Source: Actinidia chinensis
Lineage: Eukaryota; Streptophyta; Magnoliopsida; Ericales; Actinidiaceae
Direction: 5' to 3'
Length of the DNA stretch: 15,000 nucleotides
Assembly: GCA_009663005.1 (NCBI GenBank)
Contig: CM018900.1
Location: 10,632,645-10,647,644, forward strand
Every line of letters begins with the position of its first letter. The first letter of the stretch is position 1. This document shows positions 3,171-11,720 of this stretch, one piece after another. The notes under the pieces were generated by a model that did not search any database, was not told the DNA's origin, and saw only the letters and a list, made by a program, of their open reading frames with translations. The position numbers were made by a program, and so were the translations under genes.

Positions 3171-4384
3171 TAAACGATAAAAAAAAATTTTAAAATAAAA
3201 AATAATTAAAAAATCAAAATAATTAAAAAGTCAAAAAAAAACGAAAAAACATTACCCTAAATTGGACCTTAATATCCAACAGTTTTTTCTATGTAATTTG
3301 AATCATGTTCCATCACCGCAGTCTGACGAAGTGTAGCAGTCTCACAAAATGACTGGTAGACAGGTCGAGTCTACACAGTATTTGTCTACAAGTACTGCCT
3401 GCCGAGAGAGAGAAGGGAACCTATAAAGACACTAAATCTAGTAATGGTCTAAACAAAGGATTCGGAGGATCCGAACTCACCTGATCTTTACCAATAAAGA
3501 TTTAACGAGAGTCCCATTTTATTCCCCTCAAAACTCACAAGTGTATATGGAGTGAATATTATTTTATTTCTATTATTACACTATGCTCCTTCAAATTTTA
3601 TACTCCTTACTAATTTGAATTGTAGGGTGGTTTGGATTAGATTTTTTGTTAATTTATTTTGAATATATTAGGGGTACATTTATTTCGAGTGATTTAATGT
3701 AAGTGTATGAGAGCTTTTTTGGATAGTTTCTTTTTCAATTTTACATAAAAAAATCATAAAGTGTTTTTTTTTATTTTTTTTATTTATTTGTTTACCCCAA
3801 ACGGAGCACATAGTAAAATTAATGAGATATAGTTTTATTCTGAACTCTGATCTGAAAAGTTTATTTTATAAAAATTTTAAGAAAACCATTAATGTAAAAA
3901 ATTATTTTTAATAGAATATTTAGTTATATAATCAAATTACATTTGGTCTGGTTTGAAACAAAATAGATTTTTAGTAGTTTTTGGTGTATTTTTTTTACCT
4001 TTTAAATTCCACTGATTATAACGTATTTAAAAAATAAAAAAAAAATATCTGAAAGATAAAAGTATAAATAATTCAAAAATATAAAAACGGGAGATATATT
4101 CTAAATATTATAATTTGTAATTTCAACAAAAGTAATCAATTCATGTGATTACTACTATACCCGAACAAAGTGATTTAAACCCTTATACTCTAAAAAATTA
4201 TAGTAAGTTATCATTTTGGCTTTGATTTTTATATTTTTTAATCGTAATATATTTTTTATAAAAAAAATTAAATTAAATAATTATTTTTATTCAGATATTT
4301 TTACTACATAAAATGATATTTTCTCAATTTTTTAGTAACTTGTAATATGTATGAGACTGAAAAAGTATTCTCTCTCACTAATAT
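3171..4384. other. AT-rich intergenic DNA with one less AT-rich patch
   Basis: Most of this is extremely AT-rich. The patch at about 3300-3540 has more G and C and contains a small palindrome (TTCGGA/TCCGAA around 3460) and GTAGACA/TGTCTAC blocks. It resembles eroded transposon sequence but has no open frame of note. A weak terminus-like motif pair (TGGTTTGGA near 3629 and CCCCAAACGGAGC near 3796) is too imperfect to call. Confidence 0.45.
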
Positions 4385-4498
4385 TGTGTTTGAATTCTGA
4401 ATGTAATGAGATAAAATAAAATGATAATAAAAAAAATAATTGATTCAAGTGTTTGAGATCCTTAAATTTTTTTTAATAATTTTTTTTATCCAAACACA
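4385..4498. mobile_element. Short MITE-like element
   Basis: The 114-bp stretch is bounded by the perfect 8-bp inverted repeat TGTGTTTG (4385-4392) and CAAACACA (4491-4498). The interior is AT-rich and non-coding. GTTTGG-type termini are common in plant Tourist and hAT-derived MITEs. The termini are short and no target duplication is clear, so the call rests on the ends and on similarity to the better elements at 5439, 7587 and 10580. Confidence 0.4.
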
Positions 4499-4524
4499 GA
4501 TAAAAAGTAAGGATAGAGAAAGCG

Positions 4525-4533
4525 CTATATGCA
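4525..4533 (+). promoter_or_regulatory. Candidate TATA box for the MIR319 transcription unit
   Basis: CTATATGCA lies ahead of a region with plant leader features: the purine/pyrimidine-biased (TC)n tracts at 4637-4650 and 4756-4775, and an AAACCCTAA-type telo-box (complement of TTAGGGTTT) at 4813-4821. A start near 4555-4560 would be at the usual spacing. The same decamer GCTATATGCA recurs at 5961-5970 closer to the hairpin, so the true start cannot be chosen from sequence alone. Confidence 0.4.
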
Positions 4534-4636
4534 TTTACACATTCCTTGGTGCCTGAAAGACACCACCACCATCATCATATTCATATCCTGAAAAAAAATC
4601 TTCAGATAAAAAGAAAGAAACCCCAAAGAAATCCAA

Positions 4637-4650
4637 TCTCTCTCTCTCTC
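4637..4650 (+). repeat. (TC)7 microsatellite in putative 5' leader
   Basis: Seven TC units. Pyrimidine-rich dinucleotide tracts are typical of plant core promoters and 5' leaders. A longer copy follows at 4756-4775. Confidence 0.9.
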
Positions 4651-4706
4651 TTGCCAGATTTGTAAAGATCTTCATATAATATCGCTTTCCTTTTTTTCTG
4701 ACTCTC

Positions 4707-4802
4707 ATGGACAGCGACCCATCACCTCCCTCTGTCTGTTCAAACTCTTCCGTAATCTCTCTCTCTCTCTCTCTCCAACTTTTCCTTTCCTATTTTGTTT
4801 GA
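4707..4802 (+). CDS. Small ORF in putative MIR319 leader (speculative)
   Basis: An ATG at 4707 opens a 31-codon frame ending in TGA at 4800-4802. The translation starts MDSDPSPPSVCSNSS and continues as an S/L-alternating run produced by the (TC)10 repeat. If transcription starts near 4555 this would be the first ATG of the primary transcript. Some plant pri-miRNAs encode short regulatory peptides (miPEPs) from the first ORF of the leader. I see no sequence conservation evidence, and the repeat-driven composition argues for chance. Recorded as a candidate only. Confidence 0.15.
   Translation: MDSDPSPPSVCSNSSVISLSLSLQLFLSYFV
4756..4775 (+). repeat. (TC)10 microsatellite
   Basis: Ten perfect TC units inside the putative leader. 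Length changes here would change the frame of the 4707-4802 ORF. Confidence 0.95.
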
Positions 4803-4812
4803 GTCATTGAAA

Positions 4813-4821
4813 TTAGGGTTT
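4813..4821 (+). promoter_or_regulatory. Telo-box
   Basis: TTAGGGTTT is the reverse complement of the plant telo-box AAACCCTAA, a motif enriched near transcription starts of growth-related plant genes. A second, longer telomere-like run is at 5368-5381. Confidence 0.45.
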
Positions 4822-5040
4822 GAACTGACCATCATTGCTGCCATTGGTTTTTTCCACTGCTTAAATAATCTGCTAGAAAATTTGTTAGCTCTAATGAAAT
4901 CTCTTTATTTCTATTATTTAGGTGCACAATGCACGAGAAGGTACTATTTTTTTTATCTTTAGATTCTGTGAAAAAAAGCAAACACTTAACCTCTAGATTT
5001 AAAGTTTTTCTTGTGTGGGGGGAAATCTCTGATCTCAAAT

Positions 5041-5220
5041 ATTTTGGTAATGCATGATCTTATGTGTTTATATATATGCAATATATGTGTTGTTTGATCT
5101 AGATCAGAGATCTTGGTAATGCATGATCTTATTGTTATAACTAGCAATATATGTGTTGTTTGATCTCATTAATTGTTATAACTATGCAATATATGTGTTG
5201 TTTGATCTCATTAATTTTAT
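5041..5220 (+). repeat. Nested tandem repeat upstream of MIR319
   Basis: The 23-bp core GCAATATATGTGTTGTTTG plus ATCT occurs three times without mismatch (5078-5100, 5144-5166, 5186-5208). The first two copies are 66 bp apart and also share TTGGTAATGCATGATCTTA upstream. The last two are 42 bp apart and share ATTGTTATAACTA upstream and CATTAATT downstream. The pattern implies two successive duplications of different length. Palindromes such as GATCTAGATC (5096-5105) sit at the junctions. Confidence 0.9.
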
Positions 5221-5367
5221 TTTATTTATTTTTTATTTTTTGTAGTTTGATCTGAACTTTACTCATTGGTATCTGGTTATTTAGGTTCAAATGCAAAATG
5301 TTTTTTTTTTCTTCTTGTATTAATAATATATTTTAGTGCTTTTCTTCCTTGGGGTAACTTCAGTTGT

Positions 5368-5381
5368 TAGGGTTAGGGTTT
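5368..5381 (+). promoter_or_regulatory. Double telomere-like motif
   Basis: TTAGGGTTAGGGTT contains two overlapping telo-box units. It is too short to be a true interstitial telomere array. As a telo-box it could bind Myb-type or TRB proteins near a start site. Confidence 0.4.
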
Positions 5382-5438
5382 CATGCAAACAATACTTTGT
5401 CTATTTAGGAAACAACAACTCTCTTGTGCTTGACTTAA

Positions 5439-5586
5439 GCTATGTTTGGATCAAGGATTTTTTGAGGGCTTTACAAAAGTAAAGAGAATGGGAGGCAACC
5501 AAAAAATATAATGCTTAGCTCTTTCACTTTATAGTCCTTTTGTCTTTCTGTTTTCTTTTTTCTCGATAGATCGCTTCAAACACAGC
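5439..5586. mobile_element. Tourist-like MITE remnant
   Basis: The left end GCTATGTTTGGA (5439-5450) and right end TTCAAACACAGC (5575-5586) are imperfect inverted repeats sharing GCT(A/G)TGTTTG. TAA lies directly before the left end (5436-5438 region) and TAA is found one base beyond the right end, which fits a 3-bp PIF/Harbinger (Tourist) target duplication with slight erosion. The interior is non-coding. It lies between the two candidate promoters of MIR319. Confidence 0.5.
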
Positions 5587-5960
5587 CTAAACCTTGTGGG
5601 AGTCTGTTTTAAGATTGTCACTTCAATGGAAACATTCAAAATGGATTTATTCTTATGTTTGAGTACACCTAGAATCTTACAATGAGTAAAAAGAGCAAAG
5701 AGTTTTCGTATAATTTTGTAGTAAAATGCAATTATCTTCTTCAATGATTCATTTTTGTTATCCCCACAGCATGTTCTGATTTTTGGAAAAAATACTATTT
5801 TGTGATAAAATTGCATAATTATGAATAGTGATAATTAATTACATTGTAAATTTCTGTATCTCTAATCATTTTGTGCCTTTTTTCCCCTTTCTTTTTGATG
5901 TGGTAGTTTAGAAGAATAAACCAATTAAGAATAAACCATTAAGAAAATTATGTGAGAAAA

Positions 5961-5970
5961 GCTATATGCA
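5961..5970 (+). promoter_or_regulatory. Second candidate TATA box, proximal to MIR319
   Basis: GCTATATGCA followed by TAAATTA lies about 350 bp upstream of the hairpin base, a common distance for plant MIR genes. A start near 5995 would make the 24-codon frame at 6014-6088 (starting MHCTINFTT) the first ORF of the transcript. The alternative is the distal box at 4525. Confidence 0.4.
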
Positions 5971-6333
5971 TAAATTATCACAAACTAGAGTACAATTTAA
6001 GGGTGTTACTTTCATGCATTGCACCATTAATTTTACTACATCTTTACTAGTCATGAATTTTTGCAGTAATGATACGACTTCGATTTAATTTTGTTACTGA
6101 CTTATGTCTAGATGTTTATTCTTGTGTGACCAGCCTTAAAGTGTCTTTGTGGGAGGTTCCTCGTTCGAATTGATAGAGCAACGTCAGCATGCTGTAGTAA
6201 TCTAACTTACTAACTAACGATATCTTGTGGGAAAAAAATATTTGTTCTTGTGCTTTCTTTTTTATGACATGAATTCCAATTATAAAGCCCGTGGTTTGAA
6301 TATCGTGACACATATTCTTGAAAACGATATAAG

Positions 6334-6354
6334 TGAGCTTCCTTCAGTCCACTT
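6334..6354 (+). ncRNA. MIR319: miR319 star strand (5' arm)
   Basis: The segment containing GAGCTTCCTTCAGTCCA is complementary to the mature miRNA. The ends are inferred from a 21-nt duplex with 2-nt 3' overhangs against 6484-6504, so they may shift by one or two bases. Confidence 0.8.
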
Positions 6355-6483
6355 ATGGGGGGTGAAGGATTCGGAATTAGCTGCCGACTCATTCATTCAA
6401 ACGCAGTAGAAAACGGACTAGTTGATACTATTGTGAATGTGTGAATGATGCGGGAGATCAATTTCATCTTTTCTTTTCCATGC

Positions 6484-6504
6484 TTGGACTGAAGGGAGCT
6501 CCCT
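6484..6504 (+). ncRNA. MIR319: Mature miR319 (miR319a/b type)
   Basis: The 21 nt at this position, with core GGACTGAAGGGAGCTCC, match the conserved plant miR319 as I know it, including the 5' U and the CCCU end of the a/b type. The C at position 6 (TTGGAC) and the CTCCC end separate it from the related miR159, which has TTTGGATTG and ends CTCTA. It lies on the 3' arm opposite the predicted star strand. Confidence 0.97.
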
Positions 6505-6515
6505 TTTATCCTTTT

Positions 6516-7586
6516 TTTCGCCCCACTTCCACTACTAATTATGTTCAGATTATTTTCGGAGCAGATCGTTGATATACTTATGAATTTGAATTGCTAATTC
6601 CGCATTTTTCTCTCTGTTACTTATCAATCTGTTTTTGTTGTTTTAAATAGTCTTGTACTACTTGCATATTTGAATTTGACAGATATTCGCTTCAGTAATT
6701 CTTAAAAACTTGTTACGACTTGGTTTAATCTTAACTATCTTTCCTTGATTCTATTAATTGGGATTAGGTAGTCATCCATTGTCTTTTGTTGTTATTCAAC
6801 AAGTTGTTCCGGTTAACATAAATAGGTGTATTTGTCAAAACTTCTCGATAGTAGATTTTAGGTTTTGACCCCGGAAATTGTGTTATCTTGTATGACATAG
6901 TTTTTATTTCTGATTGTGGGGGAAAAAAAACAACTTCGGAACTTGTTTAAATTCTCATTCTAAGAAGTTGCTATTTTGGTGCGTTTAAATCTGCTTTCAA
7001 TGACAAACACTCGCAATGATAATTTTCATTGAAATAATATTGTTTCTTCTAGGAAGCTTCCTTATATTGTTATCTTGCAAATTTTGATTAACACCATCAT
7101 TATTGTTGTTGTTTTGGCTTGGTCAATATCAACCAGCATATCAATTCTTGAAAACACATATTTCGTGTTTCTTTTGATAATTCATGTGGATGGTATTGTA
7201 TTTATCAGGTAAGATTCATTAATAAACATGCTTTATTAATTTTCCCTACATGTGGGATATTAATTTCAAACTTCACTTGCCTTGGTGTTGCTACTCATTG
7301 GAGAACACAGAATTGTTGGCTTGATTAGGAAAGATCACATGTAAAGAGTTCTATTACAGTAAAATTTGGCCTGCTTGATCACAATTCAGGAGGTATGTAT
7401 TTGATCTCTTCTCAAAACTCGAATCGAAATAGGAAAAATCTTATAAGTTTTCTTTATATTGTTGCAGATTTGTTGAGAACACTTCTTGGAAGGTCAGCCG
7501 CTTTCAATTCTTACTGCATAATGCCACTTTTTGTATTTGTGTTATTTTTGTTTTTGATTTTCTAAACCTAGTGTTTTTACTTTTGG
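6516..7586 (+). other. Putative 3' part of the pri-miR319 transcript
   Basis: No protein-coding exon is recognised. Several plant splice-site-like signals occur in order: a donor CAG/GTAAGA at about 7208-7214, a donor GAG/GTATGT at about 7390-7396, an acceptor TTGTTGCAG ending near 7468, and a donor AAG/GTCAGC after about 7491. Pri-miRNAs of plants are often spliced downstream of the hairpin, so these may mark non-coding exons. No polyadenylation site can be assigned with confidence. Confidence 0.3.
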
Positions 7587-7963
7587 GGCTGTGTTTGGAA
7601 CTATGAAAAGAAATGGAAAAGAAGGGAACATCATAATTTTCCTCTTCTTTTGTTTGGGTTTGAGTTTTTTTGGAGGGAAAACTAGTAAAAATTCGTTTTC
7701 TTTCTCATTTTATAAAACTTTCTTTTAACATTCTTCCCTCTTTCTTTCAATTTTCTTTTCCTTGTTTATTTAGCTTGTTTTGTTATTTTCTTTCTTCTTT
7801 CATCTAAAATCCAAGTTTTTTCTTTTCTCATTTTCTTTTCATTTCATTGCAAAAAAACAAACGACAATAAATAAACTAAATTTTCCTCAAGTCTTCATTT
7901 CAATTACTATTTAAATTTTCTCTTCCTTTCTAATTTTTCTTTCCACAAATTCCAAACATAGCC
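7587..7963. mobile_element. MITE-like element with 14-bp terminal inverted repeats
   Basis: The left end GGCTGTGTTTGGAA (7587-7600) matches the reverse complement of the right end TTCCAAACATAGCC (7950-7963) at 13 of 14 positions, with looser pairing inward over A/G-rich and T/C-rich halves. The interior has no coding capacity. TTA follows the right end but the left flank is not a clean match, so the target duplication is degraded. It resembles Tourist or hAT-type MITEs. Confidence 0.65.
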
Positions 7964-9823: not shown

Positions 9824-10576
9824 ATATTTTTATTTTTATACCTGTTCATGGTTCACTTCTTTTGTGGAACCAAACTCATTATTTTAGTCTTTGAAAATTA
9901 AAATGAAAGAGATCATGCTGGTGCTTGTGGGTAAAGTAGTCATCTGAAACTATAAACAATGCCACTTCATTGGGGGGATCGACAAATGGAAGTACAATTA
10001 TATTGATTTTGGTAACAATACCGAGAGGGAGGCATGTGTTCTGCTTCTCTCTCTCTCTCTTGTGTATATTTATATACATAAATACTTTTTTTTTGAGGAG
10101 ATTGGCCATGCCCAATTTTTAGATTCCTTACAAAATTGTGTTGTGTTGCCATATTGCACGAACGTTGTTGAGCTTGCCACATAAAATTATGTATGTTAGT
10201 ATATATGAAATGCACGATGATCGACATGTGTTGAAAACGAATGGTATTAGTACAATAATACTAAATAATTAGAGAAAATTAGTTAGAAAACTACCAAAAA
10301 GAAAGTATATTTGTGGGTCCCATTCATTTTAGTAGCGAGAATTAACCTTAAACCTACACGTCATCTCTTGGAGTATAATTTGTGGGATAAATTTTTTTTG
10401 AGTAGCCTGTATTAATAATTAATGATAATTAAGAGGACATTGCTTTAGAAATACTTAGTAGTAGCATTTTGTGTCTTGAATGTCAAGTGTTTACTTCGTT
10501 TTTTTCACAAGTAACAATAATGAGATATTATTAAATTGAAGCATTTTGCGTTTGATTTCATGTACCCAAATGGTGA
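9824..10576. other. AT-rich intergenic DNA
   Basis: It contains a (TC)n tract at 10046-10060. Antisense frames of 78 and 86 codons cover 9879-10227 but overlap each other in different phases and encode low-complexity sequence from the TC tract, so neither is taken as a gene. Confidence 0.5.
10046..10060 (+). repeat. (TC)7 microsatellite
   Basis: Fifteen bases of alternating T and C without interruption. Confidence 0.9.
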
Positions 10577-11640: not shown

Positions 11641-11720
11641 AAAATTTATTTAGTACTTAAAGGAGCAACGCTTTCTTTTTAAAATTTATTTAGTACTTAA
11701 AGGAGCAACGCTTTCTTTCT
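11641..11720 (+). repeat. 40-bp tandem duplication, nearly perfect
   Basis: Two adjacent 40-bp units (11641-11680 and 11681-11720) match at 39 of 40 positions. The unit contains TTTAGTACTTAAAGGAGC. High identity suggests a recent duplication. It lies about 200 bp beyond the stop codon of the PADRE gene. Confidence 0.95.

Follow-up and report, generated by a model that had tools for sequence, protein, structure and literature searches.

A type 1 MIR319 gene in a 15,000-nucleotide stretch of Actinidia chinensis DNA

The 15,000-nucleotide stretch of Actinidia chinensis DNA analysed here, referred to as the window, contains a MIR319 hairpin on its plus strand, together with a PADRE-domain gene and one exon of an ABC transporter gene on the minus strand. 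The features assigned, in window coordinates, are as follows:

6321-6515, plus strand: MIR319 precursor hairpin (fold-back), pairing inward from 6321 and 6515 and matched by the Rfam model RF00638 at 6323-6515
6334-6354, plus strand: miR319* (5' arm), the partner of 6484-6504 with a 2-nt 3' overhang
6355-6377, plus strand: 5' arm of the spacer duplex, a putative DCL1 by-product of 23 nt that faces a 21-nt step of the 3' arm
6378-6399, plus strand: ACR5, the 5' strand of the conserved loop-proximal duplex, matching the Rfam consensus
6440-6462, plus strand: ACR3, the 3' strand of the conserved loop-proximal duplex, matching the Rfam consensus
6463-6483, plus strand: 3' arm of the spacer duplex, a putative DCL1 by-product consisting of the 21 nt that precede mature miR319
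6484-6504, plus strand: mature miR319 (3' arm), UUGGACUGAAGGGAGCUCCCU
6321-6513, minus strand: antisense hairpin arising from the near-palindromic stem, hypothetical as a transcript
12439-11927, minus strand: PADRE-domain gene, an uninterrupted 170-codon frame (Pfam PF14009, E 5.5e-08)
approximately 14375-14226, minus strand: last coding exon of a mitochondrial ABCB25-type ABC transporter (best match ABC transporter B family member 25, mitochondrial, E 2.3e-15)

Of the 101 protein frames listed in the window, 12 were tested against Pfam. The PADRE protein had one homologue in the protein search, from Actinidia rufa (59% identity over 58% of the query), and the ABCB25-type exon, a short piece, gave no Pfam match. 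To the left of the hairpin, the frames at 834-1169, 2291-2461 and 5529-5816 (all minus strand) had no Pfam match above the cut-off; a sub-threshold match to EST1 (15.5 bits versus a cut-off of 25) was found at 5532-5816 (minus strand). For an 86-codon frame at 9970-10227 (minus strand), the match to Pfam PHAF1 fell short of the threshold (E 0.0018; 18 bits versus a cut-off of 27), and a 40-nt unit is tandemly duplicated at 11641-11718, in two copies with 100% matches. Rfam returned no second MIR gene above the cut-off in the window. At E values up to 1, its sub-threshold matches were PYLIS_5 at 863-957 and MIR7504 at 7612-7709 on the minus strand, and MIR4414 at 6369-6469 and mir-9201 at 10017-10061 on the plus strand. 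The Pfam results for these 12 of 101 frames are consistent with the hairpin being the window's sole developmental regulator.

An earlier note, made from the letters of the window, had proposed the MIR319 hairpin at 6321-6515 and had named its fold as a check. When 6300-6530 (plus strand) was folded, a single, unbranched stem was obtained that forms one long hairpin (-86.1 kcal/mol; z -7.22), and none of 200 dinucleotide shuffles was as stable. In this minimum-energy fold 6335-6351 pairs unbroken with 6485-6501, as the note had predicted. The MIR159 family model of Rfam, RF00638 (model length 196; cut-off 74 bits), matched the plus strand of the hairpin with 151.2 bits (E 2.5e-34), in an alignment covering the full model. 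In a scan of both strands by 594 windows of 200 nt, the lowest energy was found for the one starting at 6301 on the plus strand (-79.8 kcal/mol), and the next lowest fell at about 12.2 kb, in a protein gene rich in G+C (-74.7 kcal/mol). Since the latter comes so close, energy alone says little, and the case for MIR319 is carried by the shuffle test and the family model. Together with the exact mature 21-mer, the fold and the Rfam match place the hairpin at the coordinates that had been proposed. A hairpin arising by chance is ruled out by the shuffle z, the RF00638 score and the specificity of the 21-mer within the window.

The 21 nt at 6484-6504, which the earlier note had recognized as miR319, agree at 21 of 21 letters with the miR319 printed for chickpea (PMC4190074), grapevine (MIR319B/C/F; PMC2831844) and soybean (MIR319e/g/h/i/l; PMC3141666). 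In the literature searched, this 21-mer appears in 43 papers. When UUGGACUGAAGGGAGCUCCCU was searched for in the window with up to 3 mismatches, the only sites found were 6484-6504 and its own star arm (6332-6352, minus strand, 3 mismatches), and the shuffle control gave a mean of 0.00 sites (200 shuffles). Exact matches in the viral and prokaryote genome collections numbered 0. The mean paired probability of 6484-6504 is 0.90, and its duplex with the opposite arm, which includes 17 consecutive pairs (6335-6351 with 6485-6501), has few mismatches and leaves 2 nt overhanging at each 3' end. The star strand had been predicted on the opposite arm, and the 2-nt 3' overhangs give exactly 6334-6354. 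Small RNAs resembling this star have been printed for other plants: 6335-6354 agrees at 19 of 20 letters with one from Ammopiptanthus, and the star at 18 of 21 with a second form, these being two of the three forms printed (PMC5048172). The agreement is 19 of 20 for a chickpea small RNA, again over 6335-6354 (PMC4190074), and 20 of 21 for one from banana (PMC6329063).

As the minus strand of the hairpin also matched RF00638 above the cut-off of 74 (98.9 bits) and gave a fold of -64.3 kcal/mol (z -3.44) that none of 200 shuffles equalled in stability, we considered whether both strands work, with an antisense transcript that would fold and yield a second miR319-like RNA, GUGGACUGAAGGAAGCUCACU, from 6352-6332. 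The miRNA-like duplex of the minus strand is nearly as stable as that of the plus strand (-29.3 versus -32.6 kcal/mol). Antisense MIR319 hairpins have also been catalogued before, since the tree of PMC3118147 includes an antisense sequence, Ath-MIR319e, as one of a redundant pair of ath-MIR319b sequences. However, both the minus-strand fold and the minus-strand match are expected because the arms of this near-palindromic stem are near reverse complements, and a near-perfect inverted repeat would by itself produce such a signal. The plus strand is favoured by 52 bits and by 22 kcal/mol, the putative mature 21-mer of the minus strand begins with G rather than U, and the term 'antisense' as it appears in PMC3141666 denotes the opposite arm, not the opposite strand. 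We therefore regard a working antisense hairpin as very unlikely.

The second duplex that the earlier note had described in the upper stem is present in both the Rfam alignment and the fold, where 6378-6399 faces 6440-6462. Its 5' arm at 6379-6399, AGCUGCCGACUCAUUCAUUCA, is identical to the grapevine chromosome 6 small RNA 6_12672 (PMC7278995), which is named after csi-miR159b-5p in that source, and ACR5 lies within 1-2 letters of small RNAs printed for Ammopiptanthus (two forms; PMC5048172), cumin (PMC10180537), rice (PMC3505464) and bamboo (PMC3804618). The 3' arm at 6440-6460 reads UGUGAAUGAUGCGGGAGAUCA. For ACR3 the agreement is 19 of 21 and 17 of 20 letters with Ammopiptanthus small RNAs (two of the four forms printed; PMC5048172) and 17 of 21 with one from bamboo (PMC3804618). 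Along the 3' arm, successive 21-nt intervals run from 6442-6462, within ACR3, through 6463-6483 to the mature strand at 6484-6504, a spacing that fits cutting from the loop toward the base. On the 5' arm, bulges would make the facing pieces, derived by hand from the pairs, 23 and 20 nt long instead of 21 if cleavage kept to the fold. The features that define type 1 MIR159/319 genes are a distance from miR to miR* greater than 60 nt, the presence of ACR5 and ACR3, and an unbranched stem (PMC3118147). All three of these 'bi-duplex' features are found here, with 129 nt separating 6354 from 6484.

The mature sequence identity, the hairpin, the star geometry, the second duplex and the 21-nt spacing of the 3' arm observed in this analysis support the MIR319 reading, and the locus very likely represents a functional flowering-plant MIR319 gene of type 1. 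By analogy with the family, RNA polymerase II would produce a transcript of the plus strand, and DCL1 would cut the hairpin from the loop toward the base in steps of approximately 21 nt, releasing first the upper duplex (6378-6399/6440-6462), then the spacer duplex and last miR319/miR319* (6484-6504/6334-6354). The mature strand would be loaded into an Argonaute, probably AGO1, and would guide cleavage of the mRNAs of TCP transcription factors. As these factors control cell proliferation, the gene would be expected to dampen growth-controlling TCP genes. Loop-to-base cutting of pri-miR319 in four steps, a requirement for the upper stem and TCP mRNA targets have been described (PMC6195573, PMC5719433, PMC9201385). 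The melon MIR319c hairpin gives rise to an extra 5'-arm small RNA whose accumulation is cold-dependent; three of its predicted targets were tested and cleavage was not found (PMC6195573), an argument against that product being functional. In Arabidopsis, miR319b.2 targets RAP2.12 (PMC5719433).

Degeneration of the upper stem is thought to leave some MIR159/319 copies unprocessed (PMC3118147), and on this precedent the locus might be a decayed, silent MIR319 copy. Against this, the mature and star strands and both conserved loop-proximal strands are intact and the stem is unbranched; a silent copy is therefore highly improbable, and we retain the reading of a functional gene.

The earlier note had also stated that the hairpin has no protein frame. 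This is almost correct, except that a 46-codon ATG frame at 6269-6409 on the plus strand crosses the 5' arm. This frame had no match in Pfam and probably arose by chance. At least 8 codons are present in the frames of 27 ATG starts between 4400 and 6330 on the plus strand, with nested starts counted apart. A peptide encoded in the primary transcript was also considered; none was singled out, and the single frame that enters the hairpin, at 6269-6409, is the one mentioned above that lacks a Pfam match. Five TATA-like words occur on the plus strand within 4000-6400, all at 4063-5071 in A+T-rich DNA, and as promoter evidence they prove nothing; among the AATAAA words searched for as transcript ends, none was convincing. 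Imperfect repeats of 29 to 42 nt occupy 5035-5220, approximately 1.1 kb upstream of the hairpin. Two CT-repeat tracts lie at 4637-4782 on the plus strand, 1.5-1.7 kb upstream of it, and a third at 10046-10070. CT-repeat tracts are of a kind found in plant 5' leaders, and the region at 4637-4782 (plus strand) is a possible candidate for the start region of the primary transcript.

At the looser threshold, the Rfam model of MIR4414 (RF03440) aligned full length to 6369-6469 (plus strand) with 25.1 bits, a score that falls far short of its cut-off of 100 bits and corresponds to an E value of 0.0051 over the 331 bases searched or 0.23 over the whole window. The 5p 21-mer of MIR4414 agrees with ACR5 at 17 of 21 letters and the 3p 21-mer with ACR3 at 14 of 21, so that the best matches of the two arms are strands that form a duplex together in the hairpin. 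As a control, we used the two printed arms of MIR4414 (44 and 45 letters), leaving aside the 40 unprinted letters between them. With 21-mers that were chosen after the alignment had been seen, 0 of 5000 shuffles (5p) and 63 of 5000 (3p) matched the hairpin equally well or better, and 8 and 47 of 5000, respectively, did so against the MIR159 consensus. The whole 5' arm stood out against the hairpin (8 of 5000 shuffles) but not against the MIR159 consensus (1716 of 5000). The match of the whole 3' arm to the hairpin was weak (418 of 5000), and in the MIR159 consensus its best match fell elsewhere (3308 of 5000).

Since these shuffle statistics are mixed, the link is suggestive only, a hint from sequence comparison that miR4414 may descend from the upper stem of a MIR159/319 gene. 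Ammopiptanthus ACR3 reads from MIR319 precursors carry the label 'mtr-miR4414b' (PMC5048172), and pepper miR4414a/b also start with AGCUG (PMC3667847). Passages of PMC5048172, PMC4233070 (pear) and PMC3667847 contain no statement of such a descent, and none of the papers in the literature searched joined miR4414 with the phrase 'miR319 precursor'. In a more far-reaching reading, the upper duplex is a microRNA lineage in itself: AGCUGCCGACUCAUUCAUUCA would accumulate and regulate its own targets, and miR4414 would be this duplex as it remained in a MIR159/319 gene whose lower stem had disappeared; we consider this unlikely. If true, the miR4414 link would supply a concrete descendant for studying the conservation of a multi-product hairpin, a hairpin that has been kept from moss to flowering plants for reasons called not well understood (PMC3118147).

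Since the matching Rfam model, RF00638, carries the name MIR159, and MIR159 and MIR319 have a common ancestry and architecture (PMC3118147), we also weighed whether the locus is instead a MIR159 gene, which would silence GAMYB-type MYB genes, the targets of MIR159 (PMC6195573). The mature sequence of grapevine MIR159A/B, CUUGGAGUGAAGGGAGCUCUC, differs by eye at only 2 of 21 letters from 6483-6503 of the window (PMC2831844), whereas grapevine miR159c, UUUGGAUUGAAGGGAGCUCUA, differs by eye at 4 of 21 positions in the same register (PMC2831844). Despite the closeness of MIR159A/B, a MIR159 identity is scarcely credible and was rejected on the mature sequence, which agrees at all 21 letters with the miR319 printed for chickpea, grapevine and soybean. 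Rfam model RF03483, which is named MIR319, scored no more than 19.8 bits, and that on the minus strand, against a cut-off of 54. Since this model has a length of 92, compared with 196 for RF00638, and was judged to be for short hairpins, we did not count the miss as defining. The sequence comparison thus supports assignment of the locus to MIR319, not MIR159, and the earlier attribution to the MIR319 family on the plus strand is upheld by the mature 21-mer, RF00638 and the fold.

The locus is genuine and ordinary, probably a functional MIR319 gene of a thoroughly known kind. It is not unusual, since type 1 loci are known from many plants: a 2011 survey counted 231 type 1 genes, including 5 candidates, across 71 species (PMC3118147). 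The locus alters no general idea. Its value is as annotation: for a conserved developmental regulator that a search based on open reading frames would overlook, it supplies the position, the strand and the processing products to be expected.

Compared with known systems, the locus shares its 3'-arm mature 21-mer with the MIR319 genes printed for soybean and grapevine and, by the type 1 definition, the star, the long unbranched stem and the second conserved duplex with known type 1 MIR319 genes. Its architecture shows no visible difference from RF00638, while some of its spacer and loop letters deviate from the consensus of that model. MIR159 is alike in hairpin architecture and upper duplex but differs in the mature sequence, at 4 of 21 positions for grapevine miR159c and 2 of 21 for grapevine MIR159A/B. 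In MIR4414 (RF03440), both arms of the miRNA duplex resemble ACR5 and ACR3, and the model covers the upper stem alone, at 6369-6469, without the miR319 duplex.
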